Below are positions 19,341-28,089 of a stretch of 52,194 nt of DNA, piece after piece. Each line of letters opens with the position of its first letter. The stretch's first letter is position 1. Below the pieces are notes generated by a model, which was not told the DNA's origin, did no database searches, and saw nothing but the letters and a program-made list of their open reading frames with translations. This DNA comes from Candidatus Neomarinimicrobiota bacterium (lineage in GTDB: Bacteria > Fidelibacterota > Marinisomatia > SCGC-AAA003-L08 > TS1B11). The stretch is taken from NCBI GenBank assembly GCA_022560655.1, contig JADFSS010000008.1, positions 1-52,194 of the forward strand. The letters run 5' to 3'. Made by a program: the position numbers and the translations under genes.

Positions 19341-19415
19341 ATCGGGCAGCTTTCGGCGGGACCGGGGGGTGCCCCAATCTCCTTGTATTCCCTCATGGCC
19401 CCTTGTAACTTGGCG

Positions 19416-19431
19416 TGGCACGATTCTTGTA
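19416..19431 (+). promoter_or_regulatory. putative sigma-54 (-24/-12) promoter of the gatC-kds-lpt-rpoN operon
   Basis: TGGCACGATTCTTGTA matches the sigma-54 consensus TGGCAC-N5-TTGCA with correct GG-to-GC spacing; the only mismatch is T for C in the -12 GC. Transcription would start near 19442, two bases before the gatC ATG at 19444, giving an almost leaderless mRNA. The operon ends with rpoN, so sigma-54 could act on its own operon. No sigma-54 activator gene is in the window. Confidence 0.5.
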
Positions 19432-19443
19432 CCCCGTCGACAA

Positions 19444-19778
19444 ATGTCCGCTAAACAGACCGTTTCACCGCAAGAAATCCAAAAGATCGCGCAACTGGCG
19501 AAACTGCGACTTGACGTTGCGCAGCTGGACACCTATACGAAGCAGATCAACGCCATTCTGGCGCACGCCCAATCGCTGGAGCAGGTTGACCTGGCAGGCG
19601 TTGAACCGCTGTCCAACGTCCTGGATTTAACGAACGTTTCCCGGCCCGACCGGCCGGCGCCGTCTCTGGAGCGGGACAAGGTGCTGGCCAATGCTCCGCG
19701 GACGGAGGAGGGCGCCCCTGAGAAACGAGCCACCGACGGCGAGTTCTTCCTGGTTCCCCGGATCATCAAGTCCGGCCC

Positions 19779-19782
<4 letters not shown>
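19444..19782 (+). CDS. gatC: Asp-tRNA(Asn)/Glu-tRNA(Gln) amidotransferase subunit C
   Basis: A 112-residue GatC, the small subunit that helps GatA-GatB convert misacylated Glu-tRNA(Gln) or Asp-tRNA(Asn) to the correct amide. The pattern is typical: IQKIAQLAKLRLDVAQLD near the N-terminus, then VEPLSNVLDL and LERDKVLANAPRTEEG, and a C-terminal FFLVPRII. gatA and gatB are not in the window, so the complex is encoded at more than one locus. It starts with ATG at 19444 right after a putative sigma-54 promoter and overlaps kdsB by 4 bp. Confidence 0.92.
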
Positions 19783-22940
<3,158 letters not shown>

Positions 22941-22965: not shown

Positions 22966-23487
22966 GTGAAGGCCCTCTTCCTGGATGTGGACGGTATCCT
23001 CACTGACAGCACGATCTACCTGGGACCGAATAATCTGGAGCTGAAGCGCTTTACCGTGGAGGACGGCGTCGGCTGCGCCCTGGCCCGCCAGGCCAACCTT
23101 ACCCTGGCCCTGATATCGGGGCGTCATTCCGAGGCCACCACGGCGCGTGCGGCACAGCTAGGCATCAAGGACGTTTACCAAGGCTACCTGAACAAACTGC
23201 AGCCCCTGGAGGAGCTGCTGGACAAATATGGTTTCAGCGACGGAGAGGTGGCCTATGTGGGGGATGGCCTGGTTGACCTGCCGGTACTGGAGCGGGTGGG
23301 CGTGGCTATCAGCGTGCCCAATGCCCATCCACTGGTGAAGGCATCGGCGGATTACATTACCGAGCGCTCAGGTGGGCAGGGTGTCGTGCTGGAGGTGGTG
23401 GAATGGATCCTGAGGCACCAGGGTCGTTATGATGAAGTGCTGGCGGGGCTGCGGACCCAAATACACGAGGCTAAGAGGATTGGCTAG
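22966..23487 (+). CDS. kdsC: Kdo-8-phosphate phosphatase (HAD family)
   Basis: A 173-residue HAD phosphatase that removes phosphate from Kdo-8-P. The nucleophile motif FLDVDGILTD is at the N-terminus; LALISGRHSE (motif II), the conserved Lys in the YLNKLQPLEELL segment, and YVGDGLVDLPVL (motif IV) follow. The GTG at 22966 is the first standard start, but it leaves only two residues before the core. In the same frame upstream, codons from ATC at 22930 read IATDGLRERVGRV, which resembles normal KdsC N-termini, so a non-standard ATC start overlapping kdsA is possible. Confidence 0.9.
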   Translation: MKALFLDVDGILTDSTIYLGPNNLELKRFTVEDGVGCALARQANLTLALISGRHSEATTARAAQLGIKDVYQGYLNKLQPLEELLDKYGFSDGEVAYVGDGLVDLPVLERVGVAISVPNAHPLVKASADYITERSGGQGVVLEVVEWILRHQGRYDEVLAGLRTQIHEAKRIG

Positions 23488-24469
23488 GAAATCGAAGCGC
23501 GACGTGTTGGCCATTGGGCGCGACGTTATCCTTCAGGAGGCGGCGGCGGTGGGCGCCCTGGCCGACCGGCTGGGGCCCATGTTTGAGGAAGCCGTGAACC
23601 TCATCTACCGGTGCGAGGGACGGGTCGTGGTGACCGGCATGGGCAAGTCGGGTCAGATTTCCCGCAAGATTGCGGCCACCCTGACAAGTACCGGCACGCC
23701 AGCTCTCTACATCCATCCCAGCGAAAGCCTGCACGGCGATCTGGGAATGCTGGGTGTGTCGGACCTCCTGCTGATCGTCTCCAACAGTGGTGAAACCGAG
23801 GACATACTGCGGATGCTGCCGACGGTAGAGGTGTTGGGCATCCCCATCGTCGCCATCGTGGGGCGGCCCGATTCCACCCTTGCGACCAAGGCGGACGTCT
23901 GGCTGGATGCCAGCGTGGAGCGCGAGGCGGGACCCCTTGAACTGGCCCCCACCAGCAGTACGGCCGCAGCGATGGCAATGGGCGACGCCCTGGCCGTGGC
24001 CCTGCTGGAGCTGCGGGATTTTAAACCTGAAGACTTTGCCCTTTACCACCCCGGTGGCACGCTGGGGAAAAAATTGCTCACCACCGTGGAATCCCTGATG
24101 CACGGCCCAGAGAAACTTCCCCTGGTCAGCCTCGATACCGTCATGCGTCAGGCTATTTTTGTCATCAGTGAAAAGGGATTGGGGATCACCGGCGTGGTGG
24201 ATGCTGACGGCCATCTGGTGGGCTGCATTACGGATGGCGACCTGCGCAGGGGCCTGGAAGGGGGTAATCACCTGCTGGACCTGCCGGCCGAAGCCGTCAT
24301 GAACCGGGAGCCCAAGCGGATTTTGCGCCGCGACCTGGCGGTGAGCGCCCTGGCCACCATGGAGGATTTTGAGATCACCTCGCTGTTCGTCATGGAGGAT
24401 GAGGAGAGCTGGCAGCCGGTGGGGGTGATCCATATTCACGACATTTTCAAATCGGGGATTCGCCGATGA
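23480..24469 (+). CDS. kdsD: D-arabinose-5-phosphate isomerase (SIS + CBS domains)
   Basis: A 329-residue isomerase converting ribulose-5-phosphate to arabinose-5-phosphate, the first step toward Kdo. The SIS sugar-phosphate domain contains VVVTGMGKSGQISRKIAATL and LLLIVSNSGETEDILRML; two CBS domains follow from about residue 200 (VDADGHLVGCITDGDLRRGL). The length matches KdsD of other bacteria (about 328). The chosen start is TTG at 23480, overlapping the kdsC stop by 8 bp and preceded by AAGAGG; earlier ATGs lie inside kdsC and encode unrelated residues. The stop overlaps lptC by 4 bp. Confidence 0.94.
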   Translation: MARKSKRDVLAIGRDVILQEAAAVGALADRLGPMFEEAVNLIYRCEGRVVVTGMGKSGQISRKIAATLTSTGTPALYIHPSESLHGDLGMLGVSDLLLIVSNSGETEDILRMLPTVEVLGIPIVAIVGRPDSTLATKADVWLDASVEREAGPLELAPTSSTAAAMAMGDALAVALLELRDFKPEDFALYHPGGTLGKKLLTTVESLMHGPEKLPLVSLDTVMRQAIFVISEKGLGITGVVDADGHLVGCITDGDLRRGLEGGNHLLDLPAEAVMNREPKRILRRDLAVSALATMEDFEITSLFVMEDEESWQPVGVIHIHDIFKSGIRR

Positions 24470-25006
24470 GCTCGGCGGGCGTCCTGTGGCTCTGGTTGCC
24501 GGTAGTGGTGCTGGTTTCGGGTGGCTGCCGGGACAGTGCGGTGATCCAGCAGCGGGGCAGCACCCGGGACATGTTTCCCGATCATGAAAGCTGGGAGAGC
24601 AGCATTATCATCTCCCGAAACGGTCGCCTGATGACGGTGGCCAATTCGCAGCGGATGATCCAGTATGACAACACGGATATTGCCCACCTCATCGGCAATG
24701 TGCAGGTCGATTTTTACAACGACGAGGGGTTGCACGTGAGTCGGCTCCTGGCCGACAGCGCGGATGTGAATACGCGGACCAACACCATGAGCGCATTCGG
24801 CCATGTAATCATCCGTTCCGATAGCGGGCTGGTGCTGCGGACCCGCTCGCTGCGTTGGGACAATGAGTACGAGATGATGACGACCCAGGATTCGGTCATG
24901 TTCGCCACCGATAACAGTGACACCCTTTACGGTGTGGGGTTCGAGTCCGATGTGGACTTAACCCATTGGAAAATCTATCGGCCCTGGGGTGTCGTGGAGC
25001 GCGGCT

Positions 25007-25023
<17 letters not shown>
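24466..25023 (+). CDS. lptC: LPS export protein LptC (lipoprotein-like)
   Basis: A 185-residue LptC. The N-terminal hydrophobic stretch (LWLWLPVVVLVSGGC) ends in SGGC, so it may be a lipoprotein rather than a single-pass membrane protein as in E. coli. The rest is an OstA/LptC beta-jellyroll (MIQYDNTDIAHLIGNVQVDF, then NTRTNTMSAFGHVIIRSDSG). LptC passes LPS from LptB2FG to LptA. lptB follows directly, while lptA and the permeases are not in the window. Confidence 0.85.
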
Positions 25024-25774
<751 letters not shown>

Positions 25775-25778
25775 GGGC

Positions 25779-27164
25779 GTGCCTGACCTCCAGCAGACGC
25801 AACGGCTAGCGCTACATCTGTCACCCCAGCAGATTCTGCAGTCAAGTATTTTGCAGTTGAACGGTCTCATGCTGGAGCAACGGATCGTGGCGGAGCTGGA
25901 GCAGAACCCCGCACTGGAGCTGCTGGACCAAGAGTTGCCCGCCGAAAATGATGAGGTGGCAGAAAATTCCGAGGATGAAGAAGAAATCGATTGGGAGGAA
26001 CTGCTCAACAGCCCTGAGGACTATAATGTGGCCCGCTACGAGGACCACTCGAAGGAGGATTTCGAGGTCCAATTGGTGGCCACCGAGGAGTTTATGGAGC
26101 GACTATCGCGGCAGTTGGTTGATCTGGGTCTGGCCGAAATCGAGATGCAAATCACCGACGAGCTGCTGGGCAACATCAATAGTGAGGGCTATCTGACCGT
26201 TGAACCGCTGCTGATAGCGGACCGGGTAGGCGTAAGCGAGGAAATGGTGGAAAAGGTCCGGCAGCACATATTACACCTGAATCCAGCCGGTGTGGGGGCC
26301 TTGGATTTGCGGGAGTGCCTCCTGGCCCAGCTGGAGGTGCAAGCTGATAAAAGGCTTCCGGGGCAGGAACTGGCCGTATCCATCGTGACGCGCCACTTTG
26401 ATGATTTTGCCAACCGACGCTACACCCGCATTATGCAGTCCCAGTCGTGCACTGAGGAGGAGCTGCAAGCAGCCATCGACGTGATCTCCCACCTGAATCC
26501 GAAGCCGGGCATGGGCGACAGCGTGGTGGTGGGCGAGTACATTGTGCCGGACATCCTGGTGGAGGATGACGAGGGCGACTGGCTGGTGACCCTGAATGAC
26601 AGCACCCTGCCGGGGCTGAACATCAGCAGCACCTATTTGCACATGCTCGCCAATAAGAAGGCGTACGACTTGGAAACCCGTCAGTTCGCGCGGCGGAAAG
26701 TGGAAGCGGCGCGGTGGTTTATTCAGGCGGTCATGCAGCGCAGACAGACCATGGTGCGGGTCATGTCGGCCATCATTTCCCGGCAGGAGGAGTTCTTCCG
26801 CAAGGGCCACGGGCACCTGAAGCCGATGGTCTTGAGGGATATTGCCGATGACATCGGCATGGACATCTCCACCATCAGCCGGGTCACCAACGGCAAGTAT
26901 GTCCAAACGCCCCACGAGATATTCGAGTTGAAGTACTTTTTCTCCGAGGGCATGACCACCGATGAAGGCGAAGAGGTGTCCACGCGCATCATCAAGGCTG
27001 CCCTGCAGAAGATTATTGACGGCGAGGAGAAGCAGAAACCGCTGAACGACGAATCCCTTGCGAAGCGCCTCAACGAGCAAGGCTACCCACTGGCCCGGCG
27101 GACGGTGGCGAAGTACCGGGAGCAGTTGAAACTGCCCGTTGCGCGGCTGCGTAAGGAGCTGTAG
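25779..27164 (+). CDS. rpoN: RNA polymerase sigma-54 factor
   Basis: A 461-residue sigma-54. The Gln/Leu-rich activator-interacting region begins the protein (LQQTQRLALHLSPQQILQSS), followed by an acidic linker (residues about 48-75), the core-binding domain, and the DNA-binding region with a helix-turn-helix (MDISTISRVTNGKY) and an exact RpoN box ARRTVAKYRE near residue 440. It directs transcription at -24/-12 promoters with enhancer-binding ATPases. It starts at GTG 25779, 4 bp after lptB. A putative sigma-54 promoter precedes the first gene of this operon at 19416. Base composition changes sharply just after its stop. Confidence 0.97.
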   Translation: MPDLQQTQRLALHLSPQQILQSSILQLNGLMLEQRIVAELEQNPALELLDQELPAENDEVAENSEDEEEIDWEELLNSPEDYNVARYEDHSKEDFEVQLVATEEFMERLSRQLVDLGLAEIEMQITDELLGNINSEGYLTVEPLLIADRVGVSEEMVEKVRQHILHLNPAGVGALDLRECLLAQLEVQADKRLPGQELAVSIVTRHFDDFANRRYTRIMQSQSCTEEELQAAIDVISHLNPKPGMGDSVVVGEYIVPDILVEDDEGDWLVTLNDSTLPGLNISSTYLHMLANKKAYDLETRQFARRKVEAARWFIQAVMQRRQTMVRVMSAIISRQEEFFRKGHGHLKPMVLRDIADDIGMDISTISRVTNGKYVQTPHEIFELKYFFSEGMTTDEGEEVSTRIIKAALQKIIDGEEKQKPLNDESLAKRLNEQGYPLARRTVAKYREQLKLPVARLRKEL

Positions 27165-27180
27165 CGCTAGACGCCGCACA

Positions 27181-28089
27181 ATGGGAAACGAAATAAAAAT
27201 TAGGTTTATTCATGAGCTAGCGAATCGCTTTGGACCCCTGAAAAGACTTCCTGACAGTCGGTCTCTCATCGACATCGGCGACGAGTTGGCGCGAGTGTAT
27301 GTTCGCTATTCAGCTCTCCACAAGATAAATAAGACATTTTATGGTCTAAGGGAAAAAGATTTACTCTTGCTCGAAGGGCGTCCGTCCTATATTTGCTTTT
27401 TGTGGGAGGGACAGTTTGAACCTCTTTTGGTTCCTTACTCGGCGTTTGAGGAGGTATTTCAGATAGCTACTGCTGCGTCGGATGGACAATATAAGGTTCA
27501 AGTCTTTCCTAATCGTGATGCTACTGAACTGTACATCGCGAAGCAGGGTAGATTTAATGTTGAAGCCTATTTTGGTTGGGGTGCACTTGAAACACTAGCC
27601 TCTTCATCAGCAAATGAATTGGTACCGGAGCTCTCCCATTCTCAAATCCAGACCCTTCTCGGAGCAATCGGCGCTGCAAAGAAGTTCGATATTTGGATTC
27701 CTCCAAGTGATCGTAGTGGCCTTGATTATTCGCTCACCGATCGATTCGATTGCCGCAAATCGCTCCCTACTGGATTTGATCCAGTCAGCAATACATTAAA
27801 AGAAATAGATGTTCTTTGGATTCAACGAGGGTCTAATGAACTCAGAGCCCTTTTTGAAGTGGAGCATTCCACGCCAATCTATTCAGGACTCTTGCGATTT
27901 AATGATATCCATCTCGCAACTCCTCAGCAGCATCCTAGATATAGTATTGTTGCGAATGACACTCGCAGAGCACTTTTTGTACGGCAGGTAAACCGGCCCA
28001 CATTTCGGACAAGCGGCTTGAATGAGGTCTGTACGTTCCTAGAATATGCCGATGTGTATGGCTGGAATAATCGGCTTAATCGTCTATGA
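27181..28089 (+). CDS. unrecognised AT-rich gene, possible PD-(D/E)xK-like nuclease
   Basis: A 302-residue protein with no family I can name. A conserved-looking segment at residues 208-230 has D210, then 15 residues later E226-V-E228 (the EIDVLWI strand, then FEVEHSTPIYSG). That D...ExE geometry resembles the active site of PD-(D/E)xK nucleases of the BamHI type, where Glu replaces Lys. The protein lacks membrane segments and a signal peptide. Its DNA is visibly poorer in G+C than the flanking genes (about 37% over 27301-27360 against roughly 60% nearby), suggesting transfer. It starts at ATG 27181, 16 bp after rpoN, with no clear ribosome site. A nuclease or defence role is inference; a non-enzymatic protein is possible. 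Confidence 0.6.
   Translation: MGNEIKIRFIHELANRFGPLKRLPDSRSLIDIGDELARVYVRYSALHKINKTFYGLREKDLLLLEGRPSYICFLWEGQFEPLLVPYSAFEEVFQIATAASDGQYKVQVFPNRDATELYIAKQGRFNVEAYFGWGALETLASSSANELVPELSHSQIQTLLGAIGAAKKFDIWIPPSDRSGLDYSLTDRFDCRKSLPTGFDPVSNTLKEIDVLWIQRGSNELRALFEVEHSTPIYSGLLRFNDIHLATPQQHPRYSIVANDTRRALFVRQVNRPTFRTSGLNEVCTFLEYADVYGWNNRLNRL

Follow-up and report, generated by a model that had tools for sequence, protein, structure and literature searches.

Sigma-54 RNA polymerase binds -24/-12 sites without an activator and waits there as a closed complex; an upstream enhancer for an enhancer-binding protein (EBP) is usual at sigma-54 promoters, but not obligatory. Negative autoregulation of rpoN, the sigma-54 gene, is known from proteobacteria besides Rhizobium leguminosarum. 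R. leguminosarum rpoN itself is negatively autoregulated (PMC3538637), and rpoN belongs to the sigma-54 regulon in Geobacter sulfurreducens and Dokdonia sp. MED134 (PMC12316311). In Escherichia coli, sigma-54 represses the overlapping sigma-70 promoters of argT, chaC, mdfA and patA, and cuts overlapping sigma-70 transcription in vitro by 10-60% (PMC4551910). Another study refers to previous reports of sigma-54 repression where promoters overlap; its RNA-seq data fit sigma competition at intergenic sites, whereas roadblock repression was ruled out at intragenic sites (PMC4591121). An rpoN-lptABC-kdsCD neighbourhood is described for diderm bacteria, and why rpoN lies beside Kdo and LPS-transport genes in many of them is an old question (PMC3162934). 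'Marinimicrobi' is absent from the main text of the sigma-54 survey (PMC12316311), and in the open-licence literature we found no paper on sigma-54 in Marinimicrobia or rpoN in Neomarinimicrobi, nor any apparent treatment of sigma-54 autoregulation of an lptB/kdsD/rpoN operon.

We analysed a stretch of 52,194 nucleotides (the window) from a Candidatus Neomarinimicrobiota bacterium, a member of an uncultured marine phylum, whose genome comprises 2.33 Mb in 128 contigs. A nine-gene run leads from gatC to rpoN, its genes overlapping or separated by gaps of about 25 bp at most. The genes and the predicted promoter elements in front of them are as follows.

19383..19388, + strand: -33-type element TTGTAT of a predicted sigma-A promoter (TTG-N20-TAACTT; the pair occurs in 19/19 site-bearing loci)
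19406..19413, + strand: -7 box TAACTTGG (TAnnTTTG type) of the same promoter, predicted +1 at 19418
19416..19431, + strand: predicted sigma-54 -24/-12 element TGGCACG-ATTC-TTGTA, covering the predicted sigma-A start
19442, + strand: predicted sigma-54 +1 (A), placed by geometry from -12 at 19430, two bases 5' of the ATG
19444..19782, + strand: gatC, first gene of the operon (PF02686, 3.1e-17)
19779..20489, + strand: kdsB-like cytidylyltransferase gene (PF02348)
20482..22122, + strand: pyrG, CTP synthase (PF06418; scanned from 20488)
22119..22940, + strand: kdsA-like synthase gene (PF00793)
22966..23487, + strand: kdsC-like HAD phosphatase gene (PF08282)
23429..24469, + strand: kdsD-like isomerase gene, start uncertain (PF01380, PF00571)
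24466..25023, + strand: lptC (PF06835)
24989..25774, + strand: lptB-like ABC ATPase gene (PF00005; named from its position beside lptC and rpoN)
25779..27164, + strand: rpoN (sigma-54), which closes the tight run (PF00309, PF04963, PF04552)

As in the diderm neighbourhood, Kdo and Lpt genes stand beside rpoN; here the run also includes gatC, kdsB, pyrG and kdsA, and a conserved sigma-54 site lies at its head. The gatC-to-rpoN order is kept in 12 of the 15 named site-bearing loci, including L121 and L138, which show no kdsD match; the other three have no rpoN match on the stretch covered. As in G. sulfurreducens and Dokdonia, a predicted sigma-54 site thus precedes a transcription unit that contains rpoN. 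Because this gene order is kept, a sigma-54 loop acting on rpoN is credible, and we regard it as likely. RpoN of this genome retains its activator-interacting domain. A known RNA element at gatC was rejected, since the window gave no Rfam match. Between rpoN and hslV, a reading frame (27139-28089) has no Pfam match, and no tblastn match in the 15 named site-bearing loci.

The element TGGCACGATTCTTGTA (19416-19431, forward strand) lies 5' of the gatC ATG at 19444 and consists of TGGCACG (19416-19422), a four-base spacer and TTGTA (19427-19431). Its sole deviation from TGGCACGNNNNTTGCW is T instead of C at -12 (position 19430). GG at -24 and TTG ending at -13, correctly spaced, are present in 19/19 gatC loci that carry the element. 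A sequence-only reading of this DNA had already pointed out the element as a sigma-54-like promoter with a single mismatch, and its sequence, strand, spacing, coordinates and mismatch all proved correct. The same reading had called for a genome-wide search, for enhancer-binding proteins and for conservation in relatives, whose loss was to speak against the site. The search returned 17 one-mismatch matches to TGGCACGNNNNTTGCW, barely above the 12 for the pattern read backwards, and the window holds one such match against 0.70 expected, a count that 51 of 100 shuffles reach. Significance of the gatC site by string alone was therefore rejected, and the case for it rests on position and conservation. 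In one scan, sigma-54-like sites were often intragenic (19 vs 7 in the reversed control). Three strong EBPs are encoded in the genome, and the site is conserved as described below.

We detected gatC in 29 of 60 genomes, the window's own included. TGGCA(C/T)G-N4-TTG(T/C) precedes gatC in 14 of them, belonging to three families (f1, 10/10 with a gatC match; f7, 3/3; f9, 1/1), and is absent before gatC in the 15 genomes of five other families (f2, f3, f5, f6, f8). Fifteen of 78 named loci carry the element: ten are the same records as in the genome set, and five are new (L122, L123, L124, L127, L138), assigned to f7 or f9 by resemblance only. The remaining 63 have no element within two mismatches in the stretch from -90 to +15. 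In total, the element, small variants included, is found in 19/19 distinct gatC loci across these three Neomarinimicrobiota families, with GatC of the other 18 sharing 43-70% identity with that of the window. The loci for this comparison and for the sigma-A promoter were anchored by a regular expression drawn from sequences already seen, which dropped no f1, f7 or f9 locus. The exact form TGGCACGNNNNTTGTA occurs in 15 of the 60 relatives' genomes, directly before gatC in 11 of those 15. The nine of 16 columns fixed in sigma-54 promoters are invariant in the 19 loci and six of the other seven vary (p about 0.0009): the element varies only where sigma-54 tolerates change. Mean column information stays at 0.09-0.25 bits from -170 to -51 (0.14 in shuffles), begins to climb at -50 and gets to 1.8 bits in the site (18 loci, one of the 19 being too short upstream). 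These results make it very probable that 19416-19431 is a sigma-54 binding site.

We then compared the base at -12, where C is conserved in 96% of bacterial sigma-54 promoters (PMC4551910). The gatC sites have T in 16 and C in three (n = 19). The same bipartite motif is found before flgB, where -12 is T in eight, A in seven and C in none of 15 sites (L229-L243), and before dnaK in many relatives, where it is C in six, T in ten and A in five of the 21 sites called among 30 loci; the other nine dnaK loci have none within one mismatch, and two of these lack a candidate, one being masked. C at -12 still occurs in the window's own genome, in the TTGCG of an Hsp20-like gene. Since flgB sites and many dnaK sites of relatives also lack C, we rejected T as a defect of the gatC site; it is, as far as these sites tell, a trait of the lineage, and what it counts against is a standard -12 box rather than sigma-54. 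Among the sigma-54 promoters of these bacteria, a C at -12 is exceptional.

The flgB site TGGCATGACTCTTGTT (L192:7792) lies 37-39 nt from the start in 11/11 f1 genomes, heads flgB-flgC-fliE-fliF-fliG and adjoins a gene for an NtrC-type EBP; the five genes were named by eye, and FlgB itself has no Pfam match. Two of the three strong EBPs in the window's genome have receiver domains and lie beside histidine kinases (also named by eye). The third lacks a receiver and its gene overlaps lptE (G000:C44:10091-11296). A receiver-less EBP followed by lptE was found in 30/30 loci examined (L283-L312); the EBP search matched 59/60 genomes, and the lptE-linked EBP is the only match in 5/5 f6, 2/3 f7 and 5/6 f8 genomes, several reduced ones among them. 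This protein is a candidate activator of the dnaK-type sites. At L019:831-1436, a toxin-antitoxin-like DUF433-DUF5615 pair directly precedes the lptE-linked EBP gene.

TTG and TAnnTT(T/G) about 20 bp apart, the arrangement of a Bacteroidetes-type sigma-A promoter, also lie upstream of gatC. A TTG-N20/21-TAAnTT pair occurs in 19/19 site-bearing gatC loci and in 5% of shuffles. Such a pair at 20-21 bp also precedes gatC in six of the 15 site-less loci, five of them f6 and one f8, and L052, likewise without the site, has a seventh at 22 bp with a poorer box. For the spacing test we used upstream stretches chosen to avoid contamination by gatC itself. TTG-N20-TAnnnT occurs 39 times in gene-upstream regions of a relative (G002), where other spacings give 5-21; for the window's own genome the counts are 13 and 14 at spacings 20 and 21, against 1-8 at others, in a set that still includes the window. 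In G002 and G042 the antisense strand is enriched at spacing 20 too, as divergent genes have upstream regions in common; in G042 the TTG-TAnnnT peak has the same height on either strand. A scan of all sequence did not establish the motif, owing to coding noise, and tRNA promoters offered no second test, as scans of the window and of 14 loci detected no tRNA. The TAnnTTTG box of Flavobacterium psychrophilum spans -12 to -5 (PMC9723704), which places the predicted sigma-A +1 of gatC at 19418, inside the -24 GG of the sigma-54 element. The sigma-A box stands further off in L028 and L031-L034, at 16-20 bp from the site in place of 4-5 bp, and the overlap with the start is looser there.

The sigma-54 geometry predicts a gatC leader of -1 to 7 nt in the 19 loci (the value for L038 depends on the GTG chosen), with -1 nt in L028; the ATG lies 11-17 nt past -11 in 13 of the 19. 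Predicted leaders at dnaK, flgB, Hsp20 and lon are roughly 23-65 nt. The AAGGAG of gatC falls between -12 and +1 in L038 and L124, 5' of the predicted sigma-54 start, indicating that only a transcript from further upstream would carry it; AAGGAG is used at dnaK (L200) in the same genome as L038. Upstream of gatC, no conserved block that could serve as an enhancer was found from -170 to -51 beyond macB-like coding sequence, and the 9-mers common to gatC loci come mainly from the 3' coding end of that macB-like gene. At flgB, AAAATTGCC and CTTTTCTCC are common to six of ten upstream regions. Allowing up to one mismatch in the arms, a TGYCA-N-TGRCA repeat is present upstream of dnaK in 15/28 loci (two of 30 were skipped) and of gatC in 0/19, against 4% of shuffles, used as control because the test takes the best of many placements.

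From the two elements, their overlap and conservation, and the operon order, we infer how sigma-54 might bind and act here. The gatC-to-rpoN operon would be transcribed from the Bacteroidetes-type housekeeping promoter (TTG at 19383, TAACTTG at 19406-19412, +1 at 19418), over whose predicted start the sigma-54 element lies. A sigma-54 closed complex would exclude or block sigma-A polymerase at gatC, so that a rise in RpoN would reduce transcription of the operon that encodes it, and thereby Kdo and CTP supply and LPS export. Were the lptE-linked activator or a different EBP to act on it, this complex could fire to yield a near-leaderless mRNA. We put the probability that occlusion of the sigma-A promoter, and hence negative autoregulation, is the main role of the gatC site at roughly 0.5. 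The sequence-only reading had taken the site for the promoter that makes the operon mRNA, in an autoregulatory loop. The loop finds support in a conserved site at the head of an rpoN-ending operon and in the presence of EBPs. The promoter claim is only partly supported, and no support was found for the site as the source of the operon mRNA: a predicted sigma-A promoter accompanies all 19 sites and is kept in six relatives without one. This promoter, the very short sigma-54 leader, the position of AAGGAG and the lack of a conserved enhancer make the loop more likely repressive than activating. As in R. leguminosarum, rpoN would be targeted by its own product; unlike there, the target is a nine-gene Kdo/LPS-export operon with the site at its head, about 6.3 kb before rpoN, where it overlaps a Bacteroidetes-type promoter, and the sign of regulation is a prediction. 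PMC12316311 states an autoregulatory loop without occlusion, whereas we favour occlusion for the gatC operon.

The main alternative is a tandem arrangement in which an EBP-activated sigma-54 promoter works alongside the sigma-A promoter and would boost the operon, including rpoN, in a positive loop through a near-leaderless mRNA. Its -24/-12 geometry is complete and conserved, EBPs are present, one of them tied to LPS through lptE, and rpoN is predicted or documented as part of the sigma-54 regulon elsewhere (PMC12316311). EBPs can also act without a nearby conserved site, and near-leaderless or leaderless translation is possible, for AUG starts in the 13 loci mentioned above, all of which weighs against occlusion. 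However, no conserved enhancer lies upstream of gatC, and the sigma-54 transcript would lose its ribosome-binding sequence in L038 and L124 and have a leader of -1 nt in L028; we consider this reading rather unlikely. Occlusion also faces the looser overlap in L028 and L031-L034, and the base at -12: the gatC element overlaps a housekeeping promoter footprint as the E. coli repressive sites do, but those sites all kept -12 C (PMC4551910), whereas gatC has mostly T. Loss of this C goes with activator-independent leakage in E. coli (PMC4551910), which would speak more for a leaky promoter. A bypass promoter, at which T relaxes the lock and allows low constitutive firing, would account for the T in 16/19 sites. 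Yet T or A at -12 is general in the lineage, including flgB beside its EBP, and does not single out gatC; moreover, the E. coli case had Region I removed (PMC4551910), whereas RpoN here keeps its activator-interacting domain. Bypass firing is thus a very remote reading.

It is also improbable that the element serves as the operator of a different regulator, or that it is a conserved part of the leader RNA at the 5' end of the sigma-A transcript. The element does lie over or downstream of the sigma-A start, and its spacer is fairly conserved (ATTA/ATAA/ATTC). However, the flgB spacer is conserved too, variation follows sigma-54 tolerance, the same bipartite motif precedes flgB and dnaK, rpoN is in the operon, and no Rfam family matched. 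Returning to occlusion, a conserved sigma-54 site over an ordinary promoter points to feedback of sigma-54 on its own synthesis, in which the part of a brake is likelier than that of the main switch. Its place at the operon head would couple the sigma-54 level with LPS supply within a single transcription unit, and the gatC upstream region is a short, testable promoter. More tentatively, and with less confidence than in occlusion itself, RpoN may be a dedicated enhancer-less brake on its own Kdo/LPS-export operon in three families, with a lineage-specific TTGT -12 box and the partner activator encoded beside lptE, a closed circuit that would be wired at both ends to LPS transport.

Several further sigma-54-like sites were found in the lineage. 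Most dnaK genes of the phylum (L199-L228) have them, about 33-75 nt before the start, and the upstream repeats in 15/28 loci are TGCCAT-N-GGCA-like. Others precede a lon-like gene (L319, G052) and Hsp20-like genes (L016, L097; G000, G006), named by eye; together with dnaK these sites look like a sigma-54-driven heat-shock regulon. About 85-120 bp before the -24 box of flgB (L229-L239), common AAAAATTGCC and CTTTTCTCC blocks may form an enhancer for the NtrC-type EBP encoded next to this gene. TGGCA-type sites with TTTGC(A/T) precede a short frame containing ALCQ-GEVD in three f1 loci (L012, L106, L112), and L109 has such a site without the frame. The window's own genome holds a second exact TGGCACGNNNNTTGTA (L007:197-212, G000:C10), located 14 nt 5' of the ATG for a protein that looks secreted, which makes it another near-leaderless candidate.
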